From: Limonium bicolor
Taxonomy: Eukaryota; Streptophyta; Magnoliopsida; Caryophyllales; Plumbaginaceae
Length of the DNA stretch: 64,000 bases
Assembly (NCBI GenBank): GCA_023374045.1
Contig: CM041777.1
Coordinates: 485,437,594-485,501,593, forward strand
Reading direction: 5' to 3'
The translations under genes were made by a program, and so were the position numbers. Under the pieces are notes generated by a model. That model saw nothing but the letters and a program-made list of their open reading frames with translations, was not told where the DNA came from and did not search any database. Shown here in pieces: positions 22,415 to 54,710 of the stretch. Each line of letters starts with the position of its first letter. Positions within the stretch are counted from its first letter, which is position 1.

Positions 22415-22437
22415 AAGTTCTTTTAAGAGGGATAGAC
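22415..22437 (+). other. Polypurine tract of element A
   Basis: GTTCTTTTAAGAGGGATAGAC directly precedes the 3' LTR start TGAAATATCC. The position and composition match the tracts of E, B and C. Confidence 0.8.
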
Positions 22438-24372
22438 TGAAATATCCTTGAAGATTATAAATAGTTAAGACTTAATTATGTAATTATTAAAGCCAAATTG
22501 TATAATTAATTAAGGCTAATGAGTCTTAATTTATTAAGGAGTTATGGAACCTAGATTATATTTACATGTAATAAATTATATGGTTCAAAAGGTTATTAAA
22601 CCTTCTAGGAAATGATGAAGTTAAATAATATAATTTGAAAAAAATTAAATAATTATTCAGGCTAATTAACCTTAATTACATATTTAAATTAAAAAATAAT
22701 TATTAATTGAGGAGAGTTTATAAAGCATAAACTATATAACTATATAAAATTTATATGATTTTATAATGACTTATTTAGTCTTAATCATATATTTAAGTAA
22801 ATATGGAAATAGTCTATTAAACTCTGAGTCTATGAAAATAATCCTATACAAGAGGAGAAAACTAAAATCACCCGGCCTTAGTTCCTCATTGGTAATTTCT
22901 TAGCTCTAATAAATAACCCTTTACCTCATTTGGGAACCATAAGTATCCGATATAACAAGTCTTATTCATCTAAAGATAGCCTATCCCAACCCAACCACTT
23001 CTATATTATGAAACCCTAACTGGCGAGCAACAAAGAGGCTCTGCACCGCTTTTCTTCTTGTGCCTGGGCAGAAGTTCAATTGTCCTCTTCATCCTCTTCG
23101 TTTTCTCCTTGTCACTGCCCTTACGGTGGAAAAAAAATCAGAGAAACTGCTGCCACTGGAACACACACACACATCCTGCGCTATGCTTTATTCTCTGCTT
23201 GTGATTATTTGACAAACAAGAAGCATACACGCTCACCCTCTTCATTCTCTACTTGATTGCGTGTTTCTACGGTAGTATATCATGGAAAGTCTGAAAGTAC
23301 ATTGCACACCAGATTCATGTTTCCTTGTGTCGTGCTGATGCAAATACCCACAATACACCCAACATACCAGATTTTATACCCCTCCGCCTCTCACAAACCT
23401 TGTTTCTTTTCAATGCAAATCCTACACAAATAAATCACTTACTGCTGCACTTCACATACCACATTTAAATTGGACTGAAATTCCTATGGTGTTGCATACA
23501 ACTCCACGTCTCTTCATTCCTTCTTGACAACGCGCCTCTTCAACGTTTAACCACTGTTTTCAATGTCATTTCTTCACTTATCTTAACGGTGACCTGCTCC
23601 AGCCACATACCAGATTGACGGTATGGGATGATTGGATCCGTGGTAAAGAAATCAAATGGGCCTGGAGGGCTACAATTCGAGCTCTCTGTTTGGTGGCATG
23701 GGAAGATAGAAATAGAAAAACTTTTAACCCGGACGCTTCGATGAATTGGGATCCTTTGAAACAATGAAGCTTAATGTCTGGCGATGGTGCAACCTTAATG
23801 GGATCATTCCCCCCCTTGATATGCATTCATTTCTTCATGATGATTGCTTATTTCATCGATGGAAAGCATTGATGTGAGGCTCTTGTGCTTGTCTTCGTGC
23901 GGATGCAATCTGGTCCCTGGTGTGGCCGTTGCCACTTGGAGTACTCAGGCTCCCTCAGTTCAGAAGAGGTCCTCATTCTGCTGGCAATTTCGAGGCATCC
24001 TTGCCTATCTGGTTGGTTGGTGTGAGTTTTAATGCATTTCTAGCAGTATATTGTCTTATGAACAATCAAATATTCGTAGGCTTTTTTCCTTTTCCCTATT
24101 CTCCCCCCATTCTTGTTAGTCTGTACATACATTATTTACTTCCACTCATCAATACAAGGCCCGGCGCCACCCATTAAAAATAAAAAAAAACATACCAGAT
24201 TGACGATGGAAAAATACATGCTCTACACCCTTTTTCATGCTTCCCCTGTTAGTATGTTGCTGCAGCAATAGAAGGACACCAGCACTGCTGCATGTCATTG
24301 AAGAATAAAGCATCTCGTTCTCTGTTTCTATAGAGTTTAGCTCCCTTATGTCCTTCGATTCTTGAGCCCAGT
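22438..24372 (+). repeat. Element A 3' LTR, first part
   Basis: It starts TGAAATATCCTTG and aligns with 10745-12099 of the 5' LTR. The extra 570 bp at 23621-24190 are a LINE fragment. The segment ends at CCAGT (24368-24372), where element B begins. The LTR resumes at 39149. Confidence 0.9.
23621..24190 (+). mobile_element. 5'-truncated LINE insertion
   Basis: The insertion is absent from the A 5' LTR. It is flanked by a 15-16 bp target duplication (CATACCAGATTGACG at 23606-23620 and 24191-24205) and ends in an A-rich tail (ATTAAAAATAAAAAAAAA). Both features identify target-primed reverse transcription. The 5' part reads WDDWIRGKEIKWAWRA and ALCLVAWEDRNRKTF. This resembles the C-terminal tail after the reverse transcriptase in plant L1-type LINEs, where a WxxWxERNxRxF motif is common. 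A stop follows and then a roughly 400-bp 3' UTR. Only the last part of the element was copied, which is usual for LINEs. It entered after element A, because only one LTR carries it. Confidence 0.88.
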
Positions 24373-27300
24373 TGAAATACCCCAAACCCAGATATGGTGT
24401 TTAGATGATAAACTAAGATATAAGGAGGCTAGTTAATTCCTAAGAAACATTAAGAAACAATTTAAATCAAAGGAAACACCATAAGAGCAGTTTAAGCAAA
24501 AACGTGCTCTAAGCTTGGAGAGACTTGGGTGAGCACCCAAATATCATTCTTAGAACTTAGTAATATCCTAATGGTCATATTAAATAAATTACCAAAGAAA
24601 ACCAAGCTCAAAAACAAGTTAAAACACAAATTGTGCTTTAAGGACTCTTAAAGCACATTTTTGAAAAATTGTCTTAGAAAGGGGTTTTAAGTGGCTAAAT
24701 GCCCATGATTACTCCCTAATTAACTCATGTACTACTTAGTATCACATTAATCGAATCTAATGGGAAATCAAAAATTTCACAAATATGTGGACTAATTTAT
24801 GAATAGTAACCGAATAGTGCCTAGTTTAGTCTTTAGTCAATTAAGTTTAGTTAGTTGGTCAAACAAGACCATGACCAGCTTAATTAAAGGGGGTGGCCGG
24901 TTTTTAAGGTGATGATTCACCACATGATCAAATAACAAAAGAGAAGAAGATATAAAGTAAGGTTACTATTTGCTTTTAAAAAAGAAAATCTTACCTTTTA
25001 AGTCATCTCTCCTCCTTTCATCATTCTTCATCTTCTTCACCGATTTTTGCTGCTCCTCTCTTCTTCTTTGACGTGAAGAACAACCCCCATGCTAGCTCCA
25101 TCTCTCTTTGACCATAACTCACTCATCTTAGCTCCAAAACCAAAACAAATACATATTCTTTTTAGTTAGCTCAAGCTCTCTCTTTCTATCTTTCCAAAAC
25201 TTCAAGAGCTTCATTTTGGTGCCAAGACAAACCACCATTAGAGGAGGAAATAGAAGTTTAAGGAGTTCATTGGCTTCTCCATTCTCTTAAGGTAAGGAAA
25301 ATGTAAGAAAATCTAGGTTTCCACCGTTTTTCTTCATTACCGAAAAAATCATACTCATGGGGCTTCATTTTTATGCCTTGTTCTAGCTTATTTTCTATTC
25401 TCCAAGGGCTAGAGGAGTTCCTTCTTGCTTCATATCCAAGCCTATTCTAAGACTCCAAGGTAAAACAATTATCTTAATACCTTAAAACACATTTTAACCT
25501 AGGGTTTGTTCCTTAAGGTTAATGTATTATCTAGCACTCATTAGAGTCATTGGATATTTGTTAGAACATTGGCAAGGATAATTGTTTGGTGACCGAGATT
25601 AAGCAAGGGAAAAACCTAAGGAGGAAAGTTTGTGAGCTTGTAGAAGAACAAGGTAAATTTCTTACCTTAAGGTGTTTAATGCATTAAGGGATGGGATTTA
25701 GATATATAGTAAGTTTAGTTTATAGTTTACATTAGAAAAGGGCAATAAAACCTAGGAAAAACAATGATGATATTTGAGAACTTGTGACAAAGGAGCAAAT
25801 GAGAAAATGGATAGTTTAAGAATGTCAAGGTGAATTATAAGAGAATTTATATTGCAATGGGAGCCTTGTTGTGTGTATTTGCAGGTTAAAGGCGATTATT
25901 ATGTGGGAAATTTAGTGTTTAAGATTTATGCATTTAAGGGCCGAAGAGCCAAGTCATTTAAGGGCCTAAGTGCCAAGCAATTTAAGTTTATGCACTATAT
26001 TGTGATGTAGTGTAGTTTTGGTGTATGATGTGTGTTAAGATGGTGTAATGAGAATTTAGGTGTTCATGGCTGTTTGATGGTGAAAAACTAAGTGTTTAAG
26101 TGTGACAATATACTAGAGAATCCATGGCAAAATTTGGTAAAGAACCTAAGTGTTTAAGATGTGTTAAGGAGATTTCATGACTAAGGAAGGACTAGGAAAA
26201 TTTAGGGGTTGTTTTGATGAAAAAGAGTGAGTTTAAGGTGTTCTTGTGAGTTACAATGACTTAGGCATCATCATGAAGGATTTAGGAATCAAATGATTGT
26301 CTTGGGATATACTTGTGTATTTAGGACTTAGGCAAATATTGGTAAACAAGTAGGAAGAAGATAATGAGTTGGGAAAAGGAGGCATAAACTTGTGAAGGAA
26401 CTTCAAGTGATGGTGTGAAGGAATTTTAGATGGTGAAAGATGCTTGGGAGATGATGTTATAGTGGTGAGGAAACATATTGGCATAGTGGTTATAATAGGT
26501 ATGAAACACCACTTAGAAGCCTAGTGAAAAACATTACAAGTGTTGGCATTATTACAAGAAAAATGCATAATGACTAAAGTGGATTTTGGTGAGTGGTTTA
26601 ATGAGGTTAATGGAAAGCTAAAGGTGTGTTTGAAGTGCCCAAATGGGGTTAGAACATACTAGGGTATATGGGGTGAAGTTTGGAGTCAAATGAGAATTTA
26701 GAAACAAAGGTCTAGAGCCGACCGACCTTGGGGACAACACCTGCAAGGTCGGTCGAGCCCAGTTTACACTACCGGAAAAGTTTCTGGAATGGACCGACCT
26801 TGGGGACCGGACTTGCAAGGTCGATCATGCCTAAAATTTTGTACGAGAATTGGTCTCTGGAATCGACCGAACTTGGGACCGACCTTGACAAGGTCGGTCG
26901 GGCCTAAATTTTCAAGGGAAAAACTCTCGGGAGTGAACCGACCTTGGGGACCGGACTTGCAAGGTCGGTTGGGGTAAAAAAATCTCAAACAGTAATATGT
27001 TCTGGAATGGACCGACCTTGGGAAAGGTCGGTCAGTAAGGTCGGTCGAGCCAAAAAGCTTATAAAAAAAACTTTTAAGTTCCAAAAAAATGTCCATTGGT
27101 ATTAGGGTATGCCATTAAGAGGGTAATGATGATTAGGAACTTAGGGACCTAAGGAATTAAGTTAAGTTAAGTATAAACCTTAATGTTTAAAATTAAGTTT
27201 ATAAGGTTAAGTGGTAAGGACTTAAGAGGTGTTAAGAGGGGATCAATAAGGGTTAAGTAAGTTAAGAAGTTAATTAATGTATAAGTAATTAATAAACTAA

Positions 27301-28626
27301 GTTGGATGAATGTTTTAGGATTGGGAGGTTTGGAACCCGAGGAGAATTAAACAACAGGGACAATCGACGGTGAGCGGTACAGTCTTTCTTGTGACCTGCT
27401 TGCTAACGAGGTGTCCCTCGGCTTGTGTGCTATCTGTTTATTTGCTATGACTAAGACAAGATAAAGCATGAAACCGGTTATACTTGTTCTCGTTGTGATT
27501 ATGTCTTCTTTACACTAACCCATGAGACTTGAAGTTTGCTACTAACTAAGTTTAGTACTTATTGAGTTAAGAAGAGGAGTTGTAAATTGGTATCTGTTGG
27601 TTAATACCCGTTAAGGTTTAACAAACACATGGTTTAAAGATTTTCACTAACTGGAACTTAAGGGGGGAGTGAGGAACCCGGGACTGACTCCGGTCTTGCA
27701 TGCTAAGGAAAGGGGGGTCGGTATCTGAATCAGATCCGTCCTCAGCTTAAGGACTTGTCTTCGGACTTGTTGCCTAGGGTCGGTTGCCGGCTCGGCTACT
27801 CTGGACTTCCCGTCCAAGGTAGGTGGCATTAAGATGGTGCGGTAGGATCACCTAAATCCTAAGACTAAGATAAGTTGTTTATTCAACCAATGGAGTTAAT
27901 AGCTCATTGGCTAGGGTTGCTTTTGACCCGACACAAATAAACATTGAGGTAAAAATCATTCATTCTAACTATGAACGGTTTGTATACTGAGATTAAGATA
28001 AGGATAAGACTGAGGTATGTTAAGGTGAACTGAGGATAAGTGGAATCAGATCTGGGGGAGGTTACTACTAACCCACTTGTTATGGGAACGCTTGAGTCGT
28101 TCATTTGTGCTTGGACTATGTATGTTCATTTGTGGATTGTTGTTTTATTGCATTTCATATTAAGATTGTGATTCTAATCAACTTCCATGCTATCGACAAT
28201 TAGTTGTCGTAGCCCCGTTAGCTTGGGGGCCATGAGAGGGTCGTACCAGCATTCGTGCTGACCCCCTTTGGGGGCTGTTTTTACACTTGCAGGTAAGCGG
28301 CCCATGAAGTCACACCATGAGAGTAGGAGCGGGTAGACTTAAGTGGGACTCTTATTTTGATTACGGGTTGCGCATGTGCTCCTGTCTGTTGATATTAAAC
28401 TGATGGTAGTTATGTTATTAACAGAGATACTAAGTACTCGGTTGGTGTAATGTTTTTGGATAGTTGTATGATCTTTTGGATTACCAGTTGTAAAAGTTTA
28501 AGAAACGGTATTTCTTGTTGTTCAGACCGTGGCAAGATCCTGGTGTTGGTTTATTTCCGCTGCGATGTTTATGTTTTAGTTGTTAAGTTTAGGGTAACCA
28601 CGATTGGCTTAGGACGGGGTGTTACA
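24373..28626 (+). repeat. Element B 5' LTR
   Basis: This 4254-bp LTR runs TGAAATACCCC to GGGGTGTTACA. It matches 34827-39148 closely; a whole 72-bp hairpin unit is missing here compared with the 3' LTR. A TATAAAG sequence at 24951 followed by a CT-rich stretch (25010-25080) is a possible promoter, but the 3' LTR copy has lost the TATA. Three AAGGTAA donor-like sites (about 25289, 25458 and 25650) follow. No gene is contained. Confidence 0.92.
26717..27049 (+). repeat. Hairpin-unit array in element B 5' LTR, five units
   Basis: Five units of about 70 bp each carry an inverted pair of the type GACCGACCTTG and CAAGGTCGGTC around GGGGACCGGACTT. They are separated by AT-rich spacers that often end in TCTGGAATG. 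Each unit could fold into a GC-rich stem in otherwise AT-rich sequence. Confidence 0.88.
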
Positions 28627-28631
28627 AAAAG

Positions 28632-28659
28632 TGGTATCAGAGCGTAGTTACGCTCTGAT
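28632..28659 (+). other. Element B primer-binding site within a perfect hairpin
   Basis: TGGTATCAGAGC (28632-28643) matches the initiator tRNA-Met primer site. Bases 28636-28646 (ATCAGAGCGTA) pair perfectly with 28649-28659 (TACGCTCTGAT) over a 2-base loop, so most of the primer site can be folded into a stem. Confidence 0.88.
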
Positions 28660-28860
28660 CAAGAAATACCGGACATAGGTGACCACTGAGTTAGGGTAAG
28701 AGTTAAGATATATGCAACGGATAAGGGCGTGAGTTGTTAGAGTGAGTAGAGTCAGATGACCACTATTAAGTGTGGATCGTCTTTACCGTCTACGGACGAT
28801 ACAAATCCTTGAACCGAAACCGTTATGGATTTGAACCTAATGTGAGTTGTGCTTATTCAG

Positions 28861-30190
28861 ATGTCAGGAAGGAGAGGAGGCCGAGGCCGTGGTCGCGGTG
28901 ACGAGGCTGAGATACCGGAAGGGCAGACGATCGCGGAGATCGTGGCTGCCGCATTGGGGCACATGGGCTATCAGCCTGGTGCACCCCCACCTCCACCGCC
29001 ACAGCCCTGGGAACCGAACTGGGTGAAGAGTCTGGCTGACCTTCGACCCGTACACTTTAAGGGAGAGACTGATCCCGCCAAACTTGAGGCTTACATCTCC
29101 GAGCTGGAGACCGCCTTCGAGACCCTTGACGTCCCTGCTGGGATCAAGGTTCGTCTGGCTGCGTTCTACCTGAAAGGGGCAGCAGGCGATTGGTGGAAGC
29201 TGGTGAGGGCCGAGCATGTGGCCAATCCAGAGTTCGGCTGGGAGCAGTACACCGCATTGCTACGAGCTAAGTACTATCCCGCCCATGTCCGGACAAAGAA
29301 GCGTCTAAAGTTGGATGCGCTTAAGCAGACCGACAAGATGACGGTGGACGAGTATTACTTAGAGTTCACCACCTTGCTCCGTCTTCTGCCAGGTCTTGGA
29401 TATTTAGACCAGATACTGGTGGACCGCTTCTATGGCGGGCTTAGCCATCGACTCCGCTACGGCATGGGGCCGACGAGCTATACTACCTTGCAGGTAATAA
29501 GAACGACTAAGATATGACTATGAGAGTAAGATTTAGATTGTGAGAAATAAGAGAAACTAATACTTTGGAAAGCATGAGTGCTATCATGCCGCTGCTAAGG
29601 TTGAGATAACCGTCCAGCTGAGGGACGAGGACAATGCCAAGAGAAAGAACACCGGGAAGAGCACAGTGCATCAAAGGCAAGGAGGGTACAAGAAACAGAA
29701 GTACCAGCCTCAAGCCCAGAAAAGTCAGAACCAAAAAGGGAAGGAGGAAAAGGAGAAGGCACCAGAAGTGCCACTGAAGTTGACATATGCATATGCAGCT
29801 AAGCCCCTGCGCTCAAGGGCGCCAAAGGGATCTGAGACTGATAAGAGAGCCGGTGGTGGCTACCAGCGATGCTACATCTGTTAGTGGTGTCACAAGGACC
29901 ACCCCGGGCTCGATTGTAAGGGGAACAAGGTTGAGTGCAACTATTGTGGGGTGTATGGGCACCGAGCATACGAGTGTTTCCGGAACCTCGCTAGCAGAGC
30001 CTTTATGCCCGAGATGAAGGGCAAGGGCAAGACCGATCAGGGAGCTGGATCTGACGGTCAGAGAAGGGTGCAGCAAGCTGTAGATAAGAACCCACGGGTA
30101 GTCCAGAAGTCGGGACCCACACTACACATGGTAGACCGGGATGATGAGCCTGAACCCTCATCGAGGCCAGGTACCGCTATGAACCGTTAA
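28861..30190 (+). pseudogene. Element B gag, broken
   Basis: Gag forms the particle and binds RNA. The start chosen is the ATG at 28861, giving MSGRRGGRGRGRGDE and a proline run; an open frame extends a few codons upstream without an ATG. The retrotransposon gag domain spans roughly residues 55-205 and includes KGAAGDWWKLV and YYPAHVRTKKR. The frame is lost at about 29494, with stops and indels through 29590. It resumes with HECYHAAAKVEITVQLRDED, a lysine/glutamine-rich linker and two zinc knuckles. The first is split by an in-frame TAG at 29882-29884. The second is a standard CCHC (CNYCGVYGHRAYEC). The reading ends in an acidic tail at 30190. Protease and the AlkB-type region follow. Confidence 0.88.
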
Positions 30191-30287
30191 GTGATATAAT
30201 TACCTGCTTACCGCATTATCATGCATGTTTGGTGAATAAATGAGTTAAATAAGAATACAATAAGATTAGACCTTGAGTAAGATATGA

Positions 30288-31043
30288 CCTATTACCACCT
30301 TAGGAAGCTTCAACATATGCTATCCAATACCTTCAACACCTAACCTGGAAGACACCGACATCCCAACCCGAGACTTTCCAACCGAACAATGTCAGGTTAT
30401 CCGCCCAGGTATGATTTTATTAAGGGGATACCTGACACCAGTAGCACAAATAGCCATCATCAGGAGATGCAGTCAACTAGGAGTGGGACTGGGAGGTTTT
30501 TATACACCGGAGTACCCAGGAGGAGCAAGGATGAAATTAAAGATGATGAGATTAGGCAAGGATTGGAATCCTTATGCCAAGACGTACCAAACCACGAGGA
30601 TACAAGATGGAGTCTCACCACCTGGAATACCCGAAGAGTTCCATCCGGTTATTACATAAGTCGTGGAGATCGCTCAGCAGTTGGAAGCTGACCTGATTCC
30701 AGACATACAAGTGAACATCTGCATTGTAAACTTCTATGAGAAAGATGGGCGACTTGGACTACATCAGGATAAGGACGAGACAATGGAGTCTCTCGAAAGG
30801 GGGATGCCCGTAGTGTCTTGGTCCATTGGAGATGACGCTGAACTTTTGTATGGCGAGCAGAAGCGTGTGGACCGTGCTAATAAGTTAATACTTAAGTCAG
30901 GGGATGTATTAGTTATGGGAGGAGAATCAAGGATGTTATACCATGTGATTAAGAGAATCAAGCTGAATACAGCACCGTCAGCAGTGATTAATGCGATGCA
31001 TATGAGACCAGGACGGTTAAACCTAACCTTTAGACAATATTAG
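30288..31043 (+). pseudogene. AlkB-type Fe(II)/2-oxoglutarate dioxygenase domain captured in element B
   Basis: AlkB enzymes oxidatively remove methyl groups from DNA or RNA bases. The frame is open from 30288 apart from one TAA at 30657-30659. The first ATG is at 30411, but similarity seems to begin just before it (VIRPGMILLRGYLT). Motifs in order are GLGGFYTPEYPGGARMKLKM, the PPGIPEEF segment, VNFYEKDGRLGLHQDKDE with the iron ligands His (30762) and Asp (30768), PVVSWSIGDDAELLYG, SGDVLVMGGESRMLYH with the third ligand His (30942), and PGRLNLTFRQY with the two cofactor-binding arginines (31014, 31032). The sequence resembles plant ALKBH1-type proteins and has no introns. It lies between the gag zinc knuckles and the protease, where chromoviruses normally have nothing. 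Apart from the stop, all key residues are kept. Confidence 0.87.
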
Positions 31044-31061
31044 CCATGTAATGTTCTAAGT

Positions 31062-32510
31062 ATGATGCAAGGATTGAGATGTAAGAAAGAAGCACATGTT
31101 GTAAACAGGATGGTTATGAATAAAATAACAATGTTGTTCATATTAATTGTTACGACTCTTGTTATACCATCATTACTCATGAAAGCTTGTGAAATACAAT
31201 TAGGTTATGGACTCGGTACGGAAGGTGCGCTAAGCATACTTACAGAGGCACAGGCCGGCGCAAGCGGTACTATCCTCACCGGCACCTTTCCGATTAATGG
31301 GATTGAGGCATCCGTTCTCTTTGACTCAGGGGCCTCGCATACCTTTATCTCGGCATCGTTTGCGAGAAGGTTGGGGCTAGACGCTGATGAGCTACCCGAC
31401 TTCACGGTTACGCTCCCGTCTAAGGAGAAGGTTCGTTGTACTCGCTACTACCGAGGAGCCATCGTCAGAATTATGGGGGAAGATTTTCCGGTCAGTTTCA
31501 TTGAGTTCAAAGAGTTGGGATTTGATGTTATTTTTGGGATGAACTGGTTGGAGCGGCAGAAGGGTTGTATCCTCTGCGCCGAGCACAGACTGCTGCTCAG
31601 GAGTCCATCTGGGGTAACAATATCATACCGCCAGAGGCCCAGAGAGCCTTCGTCTAAGATCATCACCGCTATGGCAATGTATAAGGAGTTGAGGAGGAAG
31701 GAAGAAGTATATCTCTGCTATGTCCAGGACATAGAGAGGGACCCCGAGTTCGACCCCGACTTACCGGTAGTGTCGGAGTTCCCCGATCTGTTTCCACGGG
31801 AACTGCCCGGCATGCCACCCACTCGGGAGGTAGAGTTCACCATCGAGCTGCTACTAGGAACCGGACCGATAGCCAAGGCACCATATCGCATGGCTCCGGC
31901 ACAAATGAATGAGTTAAAGGATCAGTTGAAAGACTTGTTAGATAAGGGATTTATTAGACCAAGTGTATCACCATGGGGAGCGCTAGTTCTCTTCATGAAG
32001 AAGAAAGATGGTAGTCTCCGCCTCTGCATCGACTACAGGGAGTTGAATGCAGTAACTGTGAAGAATAAGTATCCACTACCCCGCATTGATGATCTGTTCG
32101 ATCAGTTAAAGGGAGCATCTGTGTTTTCCAAGATTGATCTCAGATCGGGGTACCATCAGATAGCCATTAAGGAGGGAGATATTGAGAAGACAGCATTCCG
32201 GACACGATACGGCCACTATGAGTTTACAGTGATGCCATTCGGTTTGTCGAACGCACCGGCGAAATTTATGGATCTGATGAACCGCTTGTTCCGGGAGCAG
32301 CTGGACAATTCGGTTGTGGTATTCATCGACGACATTTTGATATATTCAAAATCAAGAGCTGAGCATGAGGAACATTTGAGGAAGGTGTTAGAGGTACTGA
32401 GGGAGAACCAGTTATATGCTAAGTTCTCCAAGTGTGAGTTTTGGCTTGACCAGGTCTCTTTCTTGGGTCATGTCATCTTAGATGCTGGGATCGCGGTGGC
32501 CGAGACCTAA
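31062..32510 (+). pseudogene. Element B protease and reverse transcriptase
   Basis: This is the longest open frame of the element (482 codons). Residues 18-40 are hydrophobic and of unclear origin. The aspartic protease has its active site DSGAS at residues 88-92 and a conserved [10 protein letters not shown] at about 154-163. The reverse transcriptase follows from about residue 265. It includes [46 protein letters not shown], an [11 protein letters not shown] block, and FIDD (421-424), the gypsy form of the catalytic YxDD. The frame ends at 32510 after a frameshift at about 32490, so the thumb continues in another frame. The protein cleaves the polyprotein and copies RNA to DNA. Neighbouring frames show the element is dead. 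Confidence 0.93.
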
Positions 32511-33105
32511 GACAGTTACCGACATTCGGAGCTTTCTTGGTTTGGAGGGTTACTACCGGAGGTTTGTTAAGGATTTCAGCAAGGTCGTGAAGTCGATGAC
32601 CAGTCTGATGAAGAAAGATGCACCGTTCGTTTGGACGGATGATTGTGAGTTATCGTTTCAGAGTTTGAAGGACTCACTGACCACTGCACCGGTTCTGACC
32701 ATTTCAGACGGTATGGAGGGCTTTGAGGTTTATTGTGACGCATCCGGCAGAGGGCTGGGCTGCGTGCTTATGCAACATGGCAAGGTGGTGGCATATGCCT
32801 CACACCAGTTGAAGAAACATGAGGAGAACTACCCCACACATGACTTAGGGCTGGGAGCTGTAGTCTTCGCTTTGAAGATATGGCGCCACTATTTGTACGG
32901 GGTTAGTGTGATGATCTACACCGACCATAAGAGCTTGAAATATATATTCACTCAGAAGGAGTTGAATCTTCGACAGAGGAGATGGTTAGAGTTTTAAAAA
33001 GACTATGACATTGACCTCCAATACAAAGAAGGGAAGGCCAATGTTGTAGCGGACGCCCTGAGCCGTCGAGCACACTCACTCCATTCACTAGTCTCTTTCT
33101 CCAGC
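32482..33105 (+). pseudogene. Element B RT connection and RNase H
   Basis: After the frameshift the RT thumb resumes with [20 protein letters not shown]. The RNase H domain follows: [18 protein letters not shown] with the first catalytic Asp, [17 protein letters not shown], and [13 protein letters not shown] with another Asp. Family members usually have a Glu in the THDLEL motif. Here the position is Gly, so a catalytic residue is lost. A TAA at 32995-32997 interrupts the frame in the WLEF-KDYDIDLQY segment. After it the same frame continues through GKANVVADALSRR to the integrase. RNase H removes the RNA template and trims the polypurine primer. Confidence 0.9.
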
Positions 33106-34157
33106 TTGGTTGATGAGGTGCGAGAGGCTCAGAGGACAGATGAGTATATGAGGGAGGTCAGACAGAAGCTGACAGATGGTACCTTTGAGAGTCAGAAATA
33201 CGACTTCAGACTTCATGATGATGATCTGTTTAGACTTAAGGGCAGGTTATGCATACCACGGGGCAACACGGATCTGAAAGACCGTATACTTAGAGAATCT
33301 CACTGTTCTTCAGTTTCCATCCATCAGGGAGCCTCTAAGATGTATAAAGACATGAAGAGATACTTCTGGTGGTCGGGGATGAAGGCAGATGTTACCGAGT
33401 TCGTCTTGAGGTGTCTCACGTGCCAGAAGGTGAAATTGAGCACCGACGACCGGGCGGAATGGTAGAGTCAATGCCAGTTCCGGAGTGGAAGTTTCATGAT
33501 ATCTCCATGGACTTCGTAGTTGGACTTCCACCTGCTAGGGGAGGTCTCAACATGATATGGGTGGTGGTGGATCGCCTTACCAAAGTAGCCCGATTCATAC
33601 CGATGAAGGATACTTGGAAGGTAACAAAATTAGCTGAGTTATTTGAGAAGGAAATTATGAGACATCACGGGATACCGAAGACCATAGTGTCAGATAGAGA
33701 TACCAGATTCCTTTCGAGGTACTGAGAGCTACCAGAGAAGCGTTGGGTACACAACTAAAGCTGAGTACCGCGTTCCATCCTCAGACAGATGGTCAGACTG
33801 AGCGTACGATTCAGACACTCAAGGACATGCTGAGGGCATGTGCCTTAGACTTCCAGGGTAGTTGGATTGACAAGTTACATCTGATCGAGTTCTCATACAA
33901 TAATAGCTATCACGCTTCGATCAAGATGGCGCCTTTTCAAGCGTTGTACGGTAGACCATGTCGTACACCGCTGCTGGGATGAGTCGAGTGAGACGGTCAT
34001 TATAGGACCAGAATACTTAGAACAAGTTCAGGCTGAAGTTCAGCAAATCAGAGAGAATATGAAAGTTGCTCAAGATAGGAAGAAGTCGTATGCTGATGTT
34101 CGACGGCGAGACCTAGAGTTCACAGTTGGCGACCGGGTATTTTTGTGAGTTTCACCG
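33106..34157 (+). pseudogene. Element B integrase, several breaks
   Basis: Integrase inserts the DNA copy into the chromosome. The N-terminal zinc-binding module has His at 66 and 73 and Cys at 103 and 106 of the reading begun at 33106 (HCSSVSIH, CLTC). A frameshift at 33430-33465 leads into the catalytic core. The first Asp is in ISMDFVVGLPP (33510) and the second in IVSDRDTRF. After a TGA at 33723-33725 and another frameshift, the catalytic Glu follows in [14 protein letters not shown] further frameshift lies near 33975. The frame then reads through YADVRRRDLEFTVGDRVFL to a TGA at 34146-34148. All DDE residues are visible, but at least two stops and three frameshifts rule out function. Confidence 0.92.
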
Positions 34158-34547
34158 ATGAAGGGTGTATTCAGATTTGGGCAGAAGGGCAAATTGAGTC
34201 TGAAGTTTGTTGGTCCTTATGAGATTACGGAGCGGGTGGGCCCAGTTGCTTACAGGTTGAATGTACCTGCTGAGCTGGGTAAAGTGCATGATGTTTTTCA
34301 TGTTTCACAGCTTAAGAAATACATGCACCACCCCTCCCATGTGTTAGAGCCTGAGAGGTTGAATTTAGAACCGAATATGAGATCAGTGGAGATTCCTCAG
34401 AGGATCTTGGATAGTAAGACTAGGGACACTCGCCATAAGTCAGTACGACTGGTGAAGGTTCTCTGGTCTAACCAAGATGTCGAAGAGGCCACGTGGGAAT
34501 TAGAGGATAAGATGAGGTCGAAGTACCCTTCTTTGTTTACCGACTAG
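34158..34547 (+). pseudogene. Element B integrase C-terminus and chromodomain
   Basis: The open stretch begins [20 protein letters not shown], the integrase C-terminal GPY/F module. It continues through [20 protein letters not shown] and ends in a chromodomain (about residues 75-128: [40 protein letters not shown]). In chromoviruses this domain is thought to direct integration towards particular chromatin. The closing YPSLF and the LVKVLW...EEATWE core are typical of the Tekay lineage. The real pol stop is at 34545-34547. The upstream TGA at 34146 separates it from the rest of integrase. Confidence 0.92.
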
Positions 34548-34552
34548 ATCGT

Positions 34553-34590
34553 CTGTATAGGGTACGGGGCGTACCCCTTTTTAAGGGGGG
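34553..34590 (+). other. Post-pol duplicate polypurine-like motif, element B
   Basis: GGGTACGGGGCGTACCC forms a palindrome with 7-base arms. CCCCTTTTTAAGGGGGG follows, which resembles the true polypurine tract about 235 bp downstream. Elements E, A and C have the same pair. Confidence 0.75.
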
Positions 34591-34826
34591 AGCTTCCTCG
34601 CTTTTGAGTTAGTAACGAACATGTTTGTCGTTTGTTTGGGTTGTGTAAGTTTATGTAAGTTGTTACATTGGTGGTAAGTTGAGATATGTATAATACTTAT
34701 GTATTTTACTTGTGGAAGACCTTTGAGTCTTGAGGTGTGTGAATGTGAATGTATGATATAGTATTAAGATTAAGGATTAAGCATATATGTGAACTTTGGG
34801 GACAAAGTTCTTTTAAGGGGGTAAAT
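34591..34826 (+). other. Element B 3' UTR and polypurine tract
   Basis: A short non-coding stretch ends in AAGTTCTTTTAAGGGGGTAAAT directly before the 3' LTR; the purine-rich core is about 34813-34826. The E/A/C conserved UTR block is not present. Confidence 0.8.
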
Positions 34827-37800
34827 TGAAATACCCCAAACCCAGATATGGTGTTTAGATGATAAACTAGGATATAAGGAGGCTATTTAATGCCTAAGAA
34901 ACATTAAGAAACAATTTAAATCAAAGGAAACACCATAAGAGCAGTTTAAGCAAAAACGTGCTCTAAGCTTGGAGAGACTTGGGTGAGCACCCAAATATCA
35001 TTTTAGACCTTATTAATATCCTAATGGTCATATTAAATCAATTACCAAAGAAAACCAAGCTCAAAAACAAGTTAAAACACAAATTGTGCTTTAAGGACTC
35101 TTAAAGCACATTTTTGAAAAATTGTCTTAGAAAGGGGTTTTAAGTGGCTAAATGCCCATGATTACTCCCTAATTAACTTATGTACTACTTAGTATCACAT
35201 TAGGAAGTCTAAATCAATGGGAAATCAAAAATTTCACAAATATGTGGACTAATTTATGAATAGTAACCGAATAGTGCCTAGTTTAGTCTTTAGTCAATTA
35301 GGTTTAGTTAGTTGGTCAAACAAGACCATGACTAGCTTAATTAAAGGGGGTGGCTGGTTTTTAAGGTGATTATTCACCACATGATCAAATAACAAAAGAG
35401 AAGAAGAGATAAAGTAAGGTTACTATTTGCTTTTAAAAAAGAAAATCTTACCTTTTAAGTCATCTCTCTCCTCCTTACTTCATTCTTCATCTTCTTCACC
35501 AATTTTTTCTGCTCCTCTCTTCTTCTTTGACGTGAAGAACAACCCCTATGCTAGCTCCATCTCTCGTTGACCATAACTCACTCATCTTAGCTCCAAAACC
35601 CAAACAAAATACATATTCTTCTTAGTTAGCTCAAGCTCTCTCTTTCTATCTTTCCAAAACTTCAGGAGCTTCATTTTGGTGCCAAGCCAAACCGCCATTA
35701 GAGGAGGAAATATAAGTTTAAGGAGTTCATTGGCTTCTCCATTCTCTTAAGGTAAGGAAAATGTAAGAAAATCTAGGTTTCCACCATTTTTCTTCATTAC
35801 CGAAAAAATTATACTCATGGGGCTTCATTTTTATGCCTTGTTCTAGCTTATTTTCTATTCTCCAAGGGCTAGAGGAGGTCCTTCTTGCTTCATATCCAAG
35901 CCTATTCTAAGACTCCAAGGTAAACAATCATCTTAATACCTTAAAACACATTTTAACCTAGAGTTTGTTCCTTAAGGTTAATGTATTATCTAGCACTCAT
36001 TAGAGTCATTGGATATTGGTTAGAACATTGGCAAGGATAATTGTTTGGTGACCGAGATTGAGCAAGGGAAAAACCTAAGGAGGAAAGTTTGTGAGCTTGT
36101 AGAAGAACAAGGTAAATTTCTTACCTTAAGGTGTTTAATGCATTAAGGGATGGGATTTAGATATATAGTAAGTTTAGTTTATAGTTTACATTAGAAAAGG
36201 GCAATAAAACCTAGGAAAAACAATGATGATATTTGAGAACTTGTGACTAAGGAGCAAATGAGAAAAGGGATAGTTTAAGAATGTCAAGGTGAATTATAAG
36301 AGAATTTATATTGCAATGGGAGCCTTGTTGTGTATTTGCAGGTTAAAGGTGATTATTATGTGGGAAATTCAGTGTTTAAGATTTATGCATTTAAGGGCCT
36401 AAGAGCCAAGTCATTTAAGGGCCTAAGTGCCAAGCAATTTAAGTTTATGCACTATATTGTGATGTAGTGTAGTTTTGGTGTATGATGTGTGTTAAGATGG
36501 TGTAATGAGAATTTAGGTGTTCATGGTTGTTTGATGGAAAAAAACTAAGTGTTTAAGTGTGACAATATACTAGAGAATCCATGGCAAAATTTGTTGAAGA
36601 ACCTAAGTGTTTAATGTGTTAAGGAGATTTCATGACTAAGGAAGGACTAGGAAACTTTAGGGGTTGTTTTGATGAAAAATAGTGAGTTTAAGGTATTCTT
36701 GTGAGTTAGAATGACTTAGGCATCATCATGGAGGATTTAGGAATCAAATGAGTGTCTTGGGATATACTTATGTATTTAGGACTTAGGCAAATATTGGTAA
36801 ACAAGTAGGAAGAAGATAATGAGTTGGGAAAAGGAGGCATAAACTTGTGAAGGAACTTCAAGTGGTGGTGTGAAGGAATTTTAGATGGTGAAAGATGCTT
36901 GGGAGATGATGTTATAGTGGTGAGGAAACATTTTGGCATAGTGGTTATAATAGGTATGAAACACCACTTAGAAGCCTAGTGAAAAACATTACATGTGTTG
37001 GCATTATTACAAGAAAAATGCATAATGACTAAAGTGGATTTTGGTGAGTGGTTTAATGAGGTTAATGGAAAGCTAAAGGTGTGTTTGAAGTGCCCAAATG
37101 GGGTAAGAACATACTAGGGTATATGGGGTGAAGTTTGGAGTCAAATGAGAATTTAGAAACAAAGGTCTGAAGCCGACCGACCTTGGGGACCGGACCTGCA
37201 AGGTCGGTCGAGCCCAGTTTACACTACTGGAAAAGTTTCTGGAATGGACCGACCTTGGGGACCGGACTTGCAAGGTCGGTCGGCTTGTATTTTGTGTACG
37301 AATTGAGTCTCTGGAATGGACCGACCTTGGGACCGGACTTGCACGGTCGGTCATGCCTAAAATTTTGTACGAGAATTGGTCTCTGGAATCGACCAAACTT
37401 GGGACCGACCTTGACAAGGTCGGTCGGGCCTAAATTTTCAAGGGAAAAACTCTCGGGAGTGGACCGACCTTGGGGACCAGACTTGCAAGGTCGGCCGGGG
37501 TAAAAAAATTTCAAACGGTAATATGTTCTGGAATGGACCGACCTTGGGAAAGGTCGGTCGGTAAGATCGGTCGAGCCAAAAAGCTTATAAAAAAAATTAA
37601 AGTTCCAAAAAAATGTCCATTGGTATTAGGGTATGCCATTAAGAGGGTAATGATGATTAGGAACTTAGGGACCTAAGGAATTACGTTAAGTTAAGTATAA
37701 ACCTTAATGTTTAAAATTAAGTTTATAAGGTTAAGTGGTAAGGACTTAAGAGGTGTTAAGAGGGGATAAATAAGGGTTAAGTAAGTTAAGAAGTTAAGTA

Positions 37801-39148
37801 ATGTATAAGTAATTAATAACTAAGTTGGATGAATGTTTTAGGATTGGGAGGTTTGGAACCCGAGGAGAATTAAACAACCGGGACAATCGACGGTGAACGG
37901 TACAGTCTTTCTTGTGACCTCCTTGATAACGAGGTGTCCCTTGGCTTGTGTGCTATCTGTTTATTTGCTATGACTAAGACAAGATAAAGCATGCAACCGG
38001 TTATACTTGTTCTCGTTGTGATTGTGTCTTCTTTACACTAACCCACGAGACTTGAAGTTTGCTACTAACTAAGTTTAGTACTTATTGAGGTAAGAAGAGG
38101 AGTTGTAAATTGGTATCTGTTGGTTAATACCCGTTAAGGTTTAACTAACACATGGTTTTAAGATTTTCACTAACTGGAACTTAATGGGGGAGTGAGGAAC
38201 CCAGGACTGACTCCGGTCTTGCATGCTAAGGAAAGGGGGGTCGGTATCTGAATCAGATCCGTCCTCCGCTTAAGGACTTGTCTTCGGACTTGTTGCCTAG
38301 GGTCGGTTGCCGGCTCGGCTACACTGGACTTCCCGTCCAAGGTAGGTGGCATTAAGATGGTGCGGTAGGATCACCTAAATCCTAAGACTAAGATAAGTTG
38401 TTTATTCAACCAATGGAGTTAATAGCTCATTGGCTAGGGTTGCTTTTGACCCGACACAAATAAACATTGAGGTAAAATACATCCATTCTAACTATGAACT
38501 GTTTGTATACTGAGATTAAGATAAGGATAAGACTGAGGTATGTTAAGGGGAACTGAGGATAAGTGGAATCAGATCTGGGGAAGGTTACTACTAACCCACT
38601 TGTTAAGGGAACGCTTGAGTCGTTCATTTGTGCTTGGACTATGTATGTTCATTTGTGGATTGTTGTTTTATTTCATTTCATATTATGATTGTGATTCTAA
38701 TCAACTTCCATGTTATCGACAATTAGTCGTCGTAGCCCCGTTAGCTTGGGGGCCATAAGAGGGTCGTACCAGCATTCGTGCTAACCCCCTTTGGGGCTGT
38801 TTTTACACTTGCAGGTAAGCAGCCCATGAAGTCACACCATGAGAGTAGGAGCGGGTAGACTTAAGTGGGACTCTTATTTTGATTACGGGTTGCGCCTATG
38901 CTCCTGTCTGTTGATATTAAACTGATGGTAGTTATGTTATTAATAGAGATACTAAGTACTGGGTTGGTGTAATGTTTTTGGATAGTTATATGATCTTTTG
39001 GATTACCGGTTGTAAAAGTTTAAGAAACGGTATTTCTTGTTGTTCAGACCGTGGCAAGGTCCTGGTTTTGGTTTATTTCCGCTGTGATGTTTATGTTTCA
39101 GTTGTTAAGTTTACGATAACCACGATTGGCTTAGGACGGGGTGTTACA
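34827..39148 (+). repeat. Element B 3' LTR
   Basis: This 4322-bp LTR starts TGAAATACCCC and ends GGTGTTACA. It matches the 5' LTR closely; the 68-bp length difference is mostly one extra hairpin unit. It is followed by CCAGT (39149-39153), the copy of the target duplication at 24368-24372. No gene is contained. Confidence 0.92.
37172..37576 (+). repeat. Hairpin-unit array in element B 3' LTR, six units
   Basis: It has the same unit type as at 26717-27049, but six units instead of five. The additional unit covers roughly 37250-37320 and has its own spacer (GCTTGTATTTTGTGTACG). Confidence 0.88.
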
Positions 39149-42100
39149 CCAGTTGGTATGTATGCTTCCTCTGTCAATTGTAACTGGAGAAGTTTATTTT
39201 TCCGTCGCACTGTGAGCAAATGATAAGCATATGAACAATATTCCTGCTGTCTCATAATTTAAAAAATGATTATGATGGGAGCTTAATCTTTTCTGCCGTA
39301 ACTTGGATACAAACAAACAGGAGCAGCAAGTGGGAAAAGTAGTATCTGATCTCTTGAGGTTGTTCGTTAAAGCCAAAGACAAGTTGGTTTCTCCTCCTTC
39401 AGCCAAGAAATAGTGCAACGAATATAATGCAACCTAGATTGGTCACCGGTTCTCATAGCAGCATCGGCATTAACATGGTAATCATTTTATATTAGCTATA
39501 CATGTGTTATTCATAGTACAACAGCTTAATTAGCTGGCTATCTATACAAAATCGATGTATAGATTTACTTTACAAGTCTGAAATGTCAACAGAAAAGTAA
39601 TAATGATAATAAAACTAACAAAATGAATGTGTGAAAACCGGGTCCTTCCATCTGGATATCCTTATTCCCTCGTTCTCCATTTCTCTCTATGGTACCTGTG
39701 TTGCTATTTCTCACATCTATATAACAGAGATTTAAATGATACTTGGTGGTATAGGCCATGTTAAAGATGTGACCAATTTATTCAGTATTGAGGGGCATGG
39801 GTATATTTGATAAGTACTGATGCTACATATGTGGGTACATGGCTAATTACTTTGCTTGTTTTACCTTATGTGGCCAAACTGCTCAACGAATTGACAAACT
39901 CAGTTGTCTGGATGAATGGAAATGTGAATGGTTTTCAAAATGGTCATATGTATGTCACTATTTTGGATGTTTTGTTTTACTATAAGTAAGAGAATCTTTA
40001 TTTTATTCAATCATTATTTAATTCAATGTCGTAGTACATTTGAAAAATGGTGAAACGAGTGTTTACTCGTGAGCTAAGGAGGAGATATTAGTAATACATT
40101 TTACTTACATATTTATGATATCGGAAATAATGATTATTCTAGTTGTCTTGCATCACTGTACTTAGATAACTCAAATTTACGGTGGGTGACGCAGCTTAAA
40201 TAAATTGAATATACTAGAATCTAAGTGATTATTTATATAAGTAAAAATTACGGAAAATATGGTTGGGTATAGATGTAAAGGGGGTTGTTTGATACAATGG
40301 GTTTGAAGATTAAAAGAAGAAAATGAATTGAGTAGTAAAACTAGCCTAATTGGTAATGGCTTTTAGAATGTAAATTAAAATCAAATTTTGAGCTTAGGAA
40401 ATAAAAAGGGTTTTAGTTGAGTTAAAGTTAGTAAATTGGGTTTTTAGTCAACTGATTAAATTTTTGTAATGGGTTTAAACTCAAGAGAGAGGTGAATGGA
40501 AATACTAATAATGAAGTGGGTCAAGTCTAGATGGGTTAAATAGTATTAATAAATTGATGGGTTAAAATGATTAAGGAATGTGTTCTATAAAATTTGTATT
40601 AGTTTGTAAAGTTATTAAGTAGTATTAACCGTGTGAGAAGTTAGAGTGTTATATATGTATATATAATGGGTTAATAGTAGACTTTATGAGATGTGTATGC
40701 ATGATGTATGAATACGTATGTGTATAAGTAGTTAGAGGATTAAATAAGAGAGAAATTAACTTATAAGATATAGTATGATTGAATTCGAATTATAAGGTTG
40801 GAAGTTATTTGGCTAAATAATGTAACGCCATTAAGGATATTAGCAATTAATAAAACTTATTATAAGTACAATATGAAGATTAGGATTAAATTTTAGACTA
40901 TGGTCTATATTCTTATAAATGTTACAGGAATTATGAAATATTAATGTTTTAATGAAACTAGTACAAGTGATGAAAATAATAAGGTATAAGAAAATGTGGA
41001 GTTTAAATAGACTTTGGAAGTTTAGTAATGTATTATAAATGTTGCATACCCTTAGGATTATAATCCAAGTATGGGTCTGTGTTGAATAACACAACTAAAT
41101 GAGGTTAATTACCTTACGTAAAATGATAAGATATATCATTTAATAAATGAGTTTTACAATTCTTACATACATATATATGTATTTATATAAGGACATATGA
41201 AGTGAATGGGTTATATGATATGGTTGGAAACCATATAATATTACATAAGAGATGTTATGAGATGGGAAGATGAATTATAACACATTATATATAAGTTCTT
41301 ATGTTAATGTATAAACTATTAAATGGTGAGTGAATTATATAATACAAGAGTTATAATATGAATTATATAAATTTATGTACTTGGATAAACTAACCAAGTC
41401 AACACAATCGGCCAAGTCATAACTTGAAAGGAGGAATAAAGATTTATAAGACAATGATATAACTAACATATAGTAACAAACTATATGGAAGTGTGTATTA
41501 TATACAAATAACAAACCTATGAATAAATGAGATGGGTTACTTGGATTGGATCCTAAGTACTAAATGGATACGACATGTTAATTACAATATAGTTAGAGGG
41601 CAATTTAGCTAATCCCAAACTGTTTAAAATCCAAATGATAAACGTGGAACAATCACGGGGTAACTACTAGGGGGATTAGTGGCTAGTCGAGGTACCGAAT
41701 TAGTCTGTATTACAGAGAGCTGATATGTAGTTTGTATTCCAGAGTTGAGTGCAATAGAGGACGTACGCTATAGGACGAGCTACGAGGAGTACCGACGGAC
41801 GAGCGTGAATCTTTATGCTGGTGTTTTGTCGGTGTACGGTATGTTAATTGTGTGGTCTGAAGGTCCTAAGGATTTTCCTGAGGTCCAGACGTTGTGTGTT
41901 TAATTGTTAAGAGCGATGTCTGTGATTTATGTATATTATCTTGTATACTGTATTGCTCAACACCATTGTTTTTTCTATTACGCGAACGTCTTATGACTGG
42001 AAGTTTATACATCTAAACTGGAAAAAGACTAGATGACCTTTAGGTATTATGAGAACCTAACTGATGGTTTACTGTTATAGTCTTAACTCAAGGATTAAAT

Positions 42101-42240
42101 ATTGTATCACTGACTAAAGGGCTAACTTATAAAGAGAGGAATCCAGACTGTTTCGACTTTCTGGTTGCGCATCGTGATCACTACGAGGGACTATATCAAG
42201 AGTCACTCAAGGGAATCCATTGTCCACATTCGACGATGGC
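39149..42240 (+). repeat. Element A 3' LTR, second part
   Basis: It begins with CCAGTTGGTATG, exactly continuing the sequence broken by element B, and aligns with 12095-15225 of the 5' LTR. A deletion of about 35 bp at 41405-41415, between short repeats, distinguishes it from 14360-14405. It ends at CGACGATGGC, where element C starts. Confidence 0.9.
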
Positions 42241-44298
42241 TTTAATACCCCGGATCTAAAAATCGTGATTAAATTACTCTAATAGGATTGTTAAAGGCCT
42301 AATGGTGCCTAAAGAGTTTTGGTAAGGGAAATAAAACCAAAAGAAAAGAGAAAATGCGTAAAACGCGAAAAACGCTAAAACGCGCATTAAATAAGTATAA
42401 GAGATATATGATCTCGTTAGGGTCCGAGATGGATTCCTAAGGCTTAGTTAGGCCTAATTAGTATCCGGGAGTGATTCCCGAAGAAAACGAATCCAAATAA
42501 TGGATTAAAACGCTAACGGAGTTTTAAAGCACGTTTTTGGAGAAAACCCGAAAACGTGGCTTTAAGTGGTCAAACGGACCCGTAAAAATTATAGTTGATT
42601 AAATAACTATAATTAAGTATTAATGGGAGTTTAATAACCATTAAAAATAAAGAAACGAGAAAAATCCAAAAAACGGGCCCGGTTAGTGAATAGTGCCAAA
42701 CCGGGTAAAACAACGAGCGTTTTCTGTAAAAAAAAGAAAAATGCTCCAGCTCACTAATAATGTGGGACCGGTTTTATAACTACACGCACACCTATACTTA
42801 AGTAATTAGCTAGCTTTTATTAAGTCACAAAAGGACAAAGTAAAAAAGTAAAAGGGGAATAGTAAAAAGGGATTTTATACTACTCTCTCCCCTCTTTTCT
42901 TTTCATTCATGATTTCTTTTCCCCCTCCAAACCGAGCTCCTTCTTCTTCATCCTCTGTGAATGGCGATTTCACAAGTGAGCAAGCAGCTCCATCTTCTTC
43001 CTCCTCTATCTTTCTCATTTCTTCACCAAATCACACAAAAACACCACCGTTAGATTTGTATCGGCAAGGGCTACGTTTTCCACCCATCAAAAGCTTGAAA
43101 CCTCCATCTTCACCTCCATGGCAGTTTGACCTTTTGAAGCTTGAATGGGTGCTTCTGACTCTCCATCATCTCCTTTTTGCTCTAAGGTAAAAATAAAAGC
43201 AAGAGTTTCATCCTTTGTAGCTTTTCCTTGCAAAATCAAAAATTTCCCAACGTTGGGAATTTTCTCCATTTCAGCCGGTTTCTCCATGCCTTTGTGGAGT
43301 GTTGGAAACTTCATCAATTGATGGCCAAGCTATCCTTTTGGACATTCTAAGGTAATACCTAAGCTAAGCTTTGAAAACTAACTCTTAAGATGTTAGTTTT
43401 GTGAGGAGAGTTGAACTAAATTGACTTGTTTTGTGTGATGTGGGGATATGATTGTAGTTAGCAATCTATGCCCCTCTGTTTGGTGTGGAAACAAGAAGAG
43501 AAAGAAGGAACAAGAGAAAGAGGAAGAAGAGAAAGAAACCGAAAATTTGCAAGGTAATGAACTCACCTTGAGTTAGTTTTGTTTGGCTTGCAAAACAGAA
43601 TTTTAATGTAGAATTAAGGATCTTGTTTTAGTGCAGTTAAGATACTACCATTAGAATGAGTAATGAGGATGTTTAATGTTGTTTAAGTGTGAGAAATAAG
43701 CTTGGGAATTAAGCTAGTTTTTATGTGTGAATAAATGGGAATGTGATGTGGTTTTTGATGTCTAAACCAAACAGGGGAGAAGAAGTGTTTATGAGCTGTT
43801 TTAGTGTGGTGAAAATGCTTAGGAAAGAAGTAAGTGCTGCCAAAATTTGCCTAGAAACAATGGTAATTGTGAGAAAAACACCTAGGAGTAACTAGGTACA
43901 TTTGAGGGGAAATGAGAGGTTAAACACTTAGAGATTTGATGAGGAAGAGAGTGGCATAGGGATAGATCTGGAAATGGAAATAATGCAAACTTGAAGTACT
44001 GGAAATGACATTATTTGAATGATAAGGAGGGAGCTCAAATCTGTCACATAGGAAGAGCTAGAAATGCTTAGTGTGCAAAGTGTTGAAAAGAGAATGGAAA
44101 TTTGTAAGTTTTGGGTATGATTTTGAGTGAAATAACCAAGAGTAAGTGAGAGGACTTGGTGGTTGATTAAGGTGGTTTAGAAGGGTAATTGAGTGCTAAA
44201 ACATGTAGATTATAAATGGGAAAGATTGGAAAATCAATGGTGAAAGAATGAGGTTGTAACAGATTTGGAAAATGCCAAATCTCTCAAAACTGCAGCAG

Positions 44299-44626
44299 GG
44301 TCCGGGACTAGGTCTAGGACCATGTTCCGGACCACCCCCTAAAATACCCCCGAGAGTTTTCCAGTTTTATAGGTCCGGGACTTACGTCCCTGCCCATGTC
44401 CCGGACCACCCCTTAAATAATGGCCGAGGATAGAAGTCTGTACTTGGTCCGGGACTAGAGATATGGACAAGGTCCCGGACCATATTGAAATTCATGCCGA
44501 GAGTTCGAGTGCAGGTTTGGTCCGGGACTTAAGATATGTATAAGGTCCCGACCACTTCAAAAATATGGCCGAGAGTTAAGACCAGCATTGGTCCGGGACT
44601 TAAGGTAGGGACCAGGTCCCGGACCA
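44299..44626 (+). repeat. Hairpin-unit array in element C 5' LTR, five units
   Basis: Five units of about 70 bp each have GGTCCGGGACT on one side and GGTCCCGGACC on the other, with a variable centre. They are separated by spacers containing GGCCGAGAG-like sequence. The arms are complementary and would form GC-rich stems. Confidence 0.88.
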
Positions 44627-54220: not shown

Positions 54221-54710
54221 TGTTATACCCAAAATTTCAACCCCCCGGAGGTGAGTCTCTTCTAATAGGCTAGTGGTGAGGGTTCCCAGATCGATCGGCA
54301 CATTTCAGAGTGCTAGGGACAGCTTAGTCATCTCCAGGGCCATTTTCGTAATTTTTCAAGGCTCCTAAGCCCCCTACAGGCTTTCTCTCTCCTCCAAATA
54401 AGGGTCAAATCAATTCAAAATGCTTTGAAATTTTTACCCAAGATAGAGGATGACATTTTAAGCATAATGGCGTTGGAATTTTGATTTTTCGAATTTCCAA
54501 TAATTTTCTAGCAATTTCTGATTGAATCTGACGAGAAATTGAATTTAAAAATATTCCAATATCCAAAAAATTCGATTCCACTTTAGAAAAATCAGAAATA
54601 TCATCCTTTACCCATGTGTGAAATTTCATAATCAAATTCCTTTTGGAAGCCCTTGAGCTAAAACGTCGGTAAATCTCGGTTTTTACCGGATTTTTCTATC
54701 TTTAAAGAGG

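Follow-up and report, generated by a model that had tools for sequence, protein, structure and literature searches.

The closest described counterpart of the system reported here is an Ogre-type Ty3/gypsy retrotransposon of the orchid Phalaenopsis, Gypsy_Pa_2799, whose second open reading frame (ORF2) encodes a paALKBH5-like protein that demethylates N6-methyladenine (m6A) in RNA in vitro; consensus sequences from the other genomes among the 121 in that survey held no such AlkB domain (PMC9289625). A stretch of 64,000 nucleotides from Limonium bicolor (assembly GCA_023374045.1, contig CM041777.1, positions 485,437,594 to 485,501,593 of the forward strand), hereafter the window, contains a long terminal repeat (LTR) retrotransposon of another kind, element B: a chromovirus whose gag and protease are separated by an AlkB domain of ALKBH1 type. 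There is about an even chance that an old plant chromovirus lineage, perhaps present in several species, fuses this captured demethylase to Gag by alternative splicing and packs the eraser into the particle with the RNA, the tRNA primer and the complementary DNA (cDNA). This would be the second independent capture of an AlkB gene by plant retrotransposons and the first to be delivered by Gag.

Both systems are plant Ty3/gypsy elements that are present in many copies and carry a captured AlkB gene with its cofactor residues kept. The orchid element belongs to the Tat/Ogre lineage, is 25.5 kb long and encodes its ALKBH5-type enzyme, active in vitro, in a 565-amino-acid ORF2 apart from a single Gag-Pol ORF1. 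The family of element B, in contrast, is chromoviral, has a chromodomain, and carries a predicted enzyme of ALKBH1 type, a 244-residue domain lying between gag and protease and accompanied by splice-like signals. No AlkB-bearing chromovirus was found among the open-licence PMC literature matches listed, and those passages of PMC12786077 that deal with AlkB name the orchid case alone. The sole earlier report found of an AlkB-bearing retrotransposon is thus that of a quite different element. A previous reading of the locus, made from the sequence alone, knew of no described chromovirus family with such a domain; this stands in so far as the orchid element is neither a chromovirus nor a carrier of ALKBH1, but AlkB-bearing Ty3/gypsy elements as such had already been reported (PMC9289625).

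Other genetic parasites offer looser parallels. Plant RNA viruses also use the AlkB fold (PMC9289625); their domains are part of the replicase, reach 11–21% identity across the 50 listed fold matches from viruses and have a separate origin. Fungal DNA transposons with a TET/JBP dioxygenase, reported under PMC12730594, likewise combine a mobile element with a demethylating dioxygenase, but differ in element class and enzyme family. In Arabidopsis, m6A keeps the RNA of the retrotransposon ONSEN within stress granules, from which it is released by the host's eraser ALKBH9B, according to sections of PMC12786077. Other sections of that paper state that plant LTR elements generally have no introns, with Ogre and EVADE as exceptions, and passages of PMC6317226 describe separated ORFs in Bianca and Ogre, with a spliced intron in the latter. 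What Ogre and EVADE would share with the family of element B is that the choice of polyprotein depends on an intron where gag meets pol or on alternative splicing (PMC6317226 and PMC12786077, in the passages concerned); here, however, the putative intron holds an enzyme exon, belongs to a chromovirus and is accompanied by two further candidate introns in gag.

Structure and age of element B

Element B is an LTR retrotransposon spanning 24373–39148 of the window, with a 5-base CCAGT duplication on both flanks. Its features are listed below; a slash marks a presumed splice junction.

24368..24372, no strand: target site duplication CCAGT, left copy
24373..28626, + strand: 5' LTR of the chromovirus, 4254 bp, Kimura two-parameter (K2P) distance 0.028 from the 3' LTR
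28632..28643, + strand: primer binding site TGGTATCAGAGC, after the 5' LTR
28861..29493, + strand: gag exon 1 (capsid, PF03732), ending in ...TTLQ
29494..29572, + strand: candidate gag intron 1, from alignment, phase 0 in family copy L026
29573..30170, + strand: remaining gag with zinc knuckle, TAG break at 29882–29884
30171..30303, + strand: candidate intron from gag donor CCAG/GTA to AlkB acceptor TTAG/GA
30304..31043, + strand: putative ALKBH1-type AlkB exon with its own stop, internal TAA at 30657–30659
31044..31203, + strand: spacer ending in the putative pol acceptor TTAG/G, whose phase equals that of the AlkB acceptor
31204..34148, + strand: pol (protease, reverse transcriptase (RT), RNase H, integrase) with frame breaks, rve core match weak
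34149..34547, + strand: integrase tail, comprising an SH3-like part and a chromodomain (~34395–34529)
34827..39148, + strand: 3' LTR, 4322 bp
39149..39153, no strand: target site duplication CCAGT, right copy

Pfam matches comprise gag PF03732, a weak zinc knuckle, PF08284, PF00078, RNase H and integrase pieces, together with a chromodomain, PF00385, at the integrase end (25.9 bits, narrowly above the cut-off of 25.1). Because of these gag, protease, RT, RNase H and integrase domains and the chromodomain, element B is classed as a chromovirus; LTRs with a target duplication, a primer site and the order gag-protease-RT-RNase H-integrase place it in Ty3/gypsy. The primer site TGGTATCAGAGC is presumably of the initiator-Met type. 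The LTRs differ by a K2P distance of 0.028 over 4244 sites, equivalent to roughly 1.1 million years at 1.3e-8 substitutions per site per year, a rice rate that may not be that of the host.

The captured domain is of ALKBH1 type

The AlkB frame of the window was queried as two separate pieces. For PF13532 the second piece gives E 6e-35, and the first, with 1.4e-4, stays under Pfam's cut-off; rice ALKBH1 (OsALKBH1, 5xeg), the top match of the solved structures, reaches 4.7e-41 and 1e-25, respectively. Seven cofactor positions are intact in the window copy (the N and Y of NxY, HxD, the distal H and two R), and none of them varies among the 34 full-length copies. The sequence-only reading is upheld on all these points: it had announced an AlkB domain resembling ALKBH1, with an HxD...H motif and both cofactor arginines, and OsALKBH1 is best by both sequence and fold. 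It had also placed the domain in sense orientation between gag and protease, which agrees with the Pfam order of gag (zinc-knuckle match weak), AlkB and protease/RT, and had noted the single TAA at 30657–30659, present within a frame that reaches its own stop at 31041–31043.

Among the matches listed, the database proteins closest to the second piece are P0001–P0005 (65–73%); the next 29 rows, many from named plants or algae, fall to 46–59%. A tree was built from 44 rows: 11 element domains, P0001–P0005, 23 cellular proteins (5 of the 28 chosen were removed, the trimming motif being absent) and 5 bacterial ones, with no ALKBH5-type rows. The element domains and P0001–P0005 form one group (support 99/99) on a long stem, separate from the cellular and bacterial proteins and nested with plant ALKBH1 proteins against bacterial AlkB; support for the 11 element rows by themselves is just 84/81. 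A structure predicted for an L010-type copy, L010 being another subfamily, has a pLDDT (predicted local distance difference test) of 89.5 from 68 aligned sequences, compared with 33 from a 10-row alignment. Its best match in the PDB is OsALKBH1, with a template modelling (TM) score of 0.86 and 49% identity.

Sequence and predicted fold thus point to ALKBH1 rather than another AlkB type, and an orchid-type ALKBH5 capture was rejected on the same grounds. With OsALKBH1 (5xeg, 5xoi) and other plant ALKBH1 proteins the domain shares the top sequence and fold match, the active site and an FxIC motif before the domain. It differs from them in being borne by a retrotransposon, in its long-stem clade with P0001–P0005 and in its short linker before the domain; the long N-terminal part of some cellular ALKBH1 proteins is absent. 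Scans of IMG/VR for relatives yielded no confirmed match. By names and Pfam labels, AlkB was fused to gag or RT in 0 of 41 annotated long-protein matches, four of which were checked in full, in a search that covered proteins of 0.55–1.75 times the length of the 1100-residue query. Two annotated proteins of Smallanthus sonchifolius, P0121 and P0122, contain two or more consecutive ALKBH1 units and are perhaps merged tandem genes.

A family of copies in the host genome

The host assembly (2.92 Gb, 2686 contigs) was searched, with candidate counts that are lower bounds. PF13532 gave 150 scored places of 38325 loose candidates; all 150 lie above Pfam's cut-off and 149 have no stop within the match. 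A DNA search with the window domain gave 40 scored places of 5122 loose candidates, at 94–100% identity and all full-length or within one base, the 100% match being the window itself. No family DNA at E 1e-20 turned up in two arbitrary 10-kb genome stretches, one of which had a distant RT/RNase H at 33–41%.

Twenty long copies, all from plus-strand places of the 150-place list, repeat the architecture of element B. Both AlkB halves precede protease/RT in 20 of 20, and a gag or zinc-knuckle match lies 5' of AlkB in every one (L028 is without the capsid match, L022 without the knuckle match). The chromodomain region is reached in 19, L015 ending after part of RT; the primer-site motif is found with no more than 2 mismatches in 18, and the LTR-start motif 3' of pol in 19. 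Together with 11 short stretches and five loci cut by the search, these copies make up a set of 36 that could be read across AlkB: the frame is free of stops in 30, in a sample biased to good matches, and holds one or two stops in the other six. The window's TAA at 30657–30659 is absent from all three siblings of the window type.

LTR dating succeeded for two copies, the window's and one of another four, the 3' LTR not being found within the fetched stretch in the remaining three; the LTRs are ~97–98% identical, pointing to recent insertion of the two dated copies. At C1:497439466-497470353 four AlkB places of equal score stand in a row at ~10 kb spacing, perhaps as tandem element copies. P0163, a 1095-amino-acid pol (74%) in a frame without a gag domain, together with P0001–P0005, suggests that other species carry the family; these proteins, the only ones on which the suggestion goes, could belong to the same species.

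Purifying selection on the domain

An alignment of the window, L010 and L013 types spans 244 codons with zero gaps. Between these three subfamilies nonsynonymous and synonymous divergence (dN/dS, by the NG86 method) amounts to 0.188/1.60, 0.214/2.12 and 0.201/2.41, giving ratios of 0.118, 0.101 and 0.084, with dS near saturation. Within types, the corresponding ratio of proportions (pN/pS) is 0.182 (22 copies) and 0.136 (7 copies), stop-bearing copies excluded. Across 17 L010-type copies, AlkB third positions differ by 7.3%, first by 2.7% and second by 1.8%, and the flanking spacers by 8.8% before and 8.0% after the domain; third positions and spacers therefore change 3 to 5 times faster than first and second positions. 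Gaps occupy 19 of 153 and 21 of 187 spacer columns, compared with 3 of 741 AlkB columns. In the window type (four sequences) the codon positions differ less, at 3.8, 4.4 and 6.6%, as expected because copies decay after insertion. From the low dN/dS, the gap-free frame and the kept cofactor residues it follows that the AlkB domain is, by its sequence record, a working gene on an evolutionary scale, though the copy in the window is dead.

A functionless, one-off retrocopy of a host gene in this particular copy would account for the broken window sequence and for a domain without internal introns. The many copies, the three types with dS of 1.6–2.4 and dN/dS of ~0.1, and the grouping of the element domains with P0001–P0005 at 99/99 leave it a negligible probability, and it was rejected as contradicted by the divergence pattern. 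The sequence-only reading had itself raised the landing of a retrocopy in this one copy, of which there is no sign. What it had proposed as support for a working gene was found instead: many further copies with gag, AlkB and protease in that order, mostly open frames, and a dN/dS of ~0.1 between subfamilies.

AlkB as a probable alternative exon

In six aligned sequences of three types, gag ends at CCAG/GTA, AlkB starts after AG/GA and pol starts after TTAG/G. None of the 17 L010-type copies departs from the GT or from either AG, and all 36 copies read have the AG on the AlkB side. In the window, L010 and L026 the gag donor agrees in phase with both acceptors, and either join would thus keep the frame; in L026, pol meets a copy-specific frameshift after the in-phase join. 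A stretch whose splice-like signals are conserved and in phase parts the gag frame from the pol frame. In four one-frame gag-pol relatives (P0175, P0177, P0179 and P0181) the gag-protease linker is continuous; 11 such relatives were examined and the protease motif was matched by pattern in 4.

Two more putative gag introns follow ...TTLQ (phase 0) and precede the zinc knuckle (phase 1). The second, present in the L010 and L013 subfamilies, is precisely absent from the window element near 29823, as would be expected if spliced RNA had been copied into DNA. The best reading of these signals is alternative splicing to Gag-AlkB or Gag-Pol. It modifies two points of the sequence-only reading. The frame at 30288–31043 exists as described, but coding probably begins at ~30304 and 30288–30303 looks like the end of an intron; and whereas no intron lies inside the domain, the domain itself seems to lie within one.

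The model as a whole, a captured ALKBH1-type AlkB kept by selection, used as an alternative exon and borne by Gag as an eraser, is considered fairly probable. An ALKBH1-type gene would have been captured by an ancestor of the chromovirus family, at a site between gag and protease, and would since have been retained under purifying selection as the family diverged into subfamilies and multiplied. AlkB would be an alternative exon within a gag-pol intron: joining the gag-end donor to the first acceptor would yield Gag-AlkB, ending at the AlkB stop, and joining it to the second would skip AlkB and yield Gag-Pol. Gag would then bring the enzyme to element RNA and particles. The sequence supports the gene, its position, its copies, an intact active site, selection and conserved in-phase splice-like signals; that the splices occur and the fusion is produced, we infer.

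Several observations weigh against the model. The window copy has a stop within AlkB and a broken gag and pol, and among its three siblings one is fully open, one has two stops and one is frameshifted near the start. The copies read were the best-scoring places, so that 30 open frames of 36 overstate intactness. The acceptor of gag intron 1 is less clear in the window than in sister copies. Since ~59% of spacer columns are invariant anyway among the 17 L010-type copies, the six invariant splice bases in that type are modest evidence; the weight of the splicing case lies with the three types and their common phase. Finally, in the L010 type a Met stands at residue 35 in 27 of 27 copies, and a separate protein is possible there.

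The last point leads to a rival view, judged unlikely, in which AlkB is a selected element gene expressed as its own protein by internal initiation, re-initiation or a spliced leader, without fusion to Gag. In its favour, the core domain opens with a Met in the L010 and window types, and the orchid element keeps its AlkB in a separate ORF (PMC9289625). However, the 32 codons upstream of that Met are also gap-free and in frame across types, with dN of 0.19–0.41 against dS of ~1 or more, and both acceptors match the phase of the gag donor. In the L013 type, all 7 copies lack a Met/ATG in the AlkB frame upstream of residue 75, a position already within the domain; a separate start at Met35 was rejected as a general explanation on this ground.

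Candidate substrates

Under the model of a Gag-borne eraser, the enzyme would encounter RNA, primer tRNA and single-stranded cDNA, and would strip off methyl marks that obstruct the RNA or the copying of it, N6- or N1-methyladenine being the simplest candidates; the substrate, too, we infer. Two narrower proposals differ on the target. Retention mainly to repair or unmethylate single-stranded cDNA or inserted DNA (N6-methyladenine in DNA, 6mA), in the manner of plant ALKBH1, is possible but somewhat doubtful: the nearest enzyme, OsALKBH1, prefers single-stranded or unpaired 6mA DNA according to portions of PMC10469495, but RNA is equally possible as a substrate.

A second proposal has the enzyme act on the tRNA primer, removing N1-methyladenine at position 58 (m1A58) of initiator tRNA or lesions that block reverse transcription, rather than m6A. 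The primer site, which we take to be of the initiator type, would fit, and AlkB crystal structures with substrates of the 1-methyladenine/3-methylcytosine type are among the close folds of the L010-type model. Moreover, animal ALKBH1 erases tRNA m1A58, as stated in part of PMC7475180. This target is nevertheless quite improbable: in HIV-1 the m1A58 of the primer is useful as a plus-strand stop, so that its erasure could be harmful (PMC13191261, in the section concerned), and the relevant portions of PMC10469495 present plant ALKBH1 as a demethylase of 6mA in DNA.

Surrounding repeats

Element B is inserted within the 3' LTR of element A (10744–42240), whose LTR pair, 10744–15225 and 22437–24374 plus 39149–42240, is ~95–97% alike. 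Further downstream, 42241–45282 pairs with 51701–54220 plus 63520–64000, and 54221–55975 with 61763–63520 (99%); these two repeat pairs in 42241–64000 look like another nested pair of LTR elements. Short tandem-like repeats lie at 60793–61046 and 61361–61643 of the window.

Implications for plant retrotransposons

The introns proposed here would be unusual, plant LTR elements being generally intronless in the account given by parts of PMC12786077. The many copies and, in the two cases dated, their recent insertion make the model testable in living tissue, where spliced transcripts and the target of demethylation could be sought. Two plant retrotransposon lineages have each kept an AlkB enzyme, of different types, and this dual retention is evidence by convergence that plant retrotransposons are limited by methylation of nucleic acids or by methyl damage.
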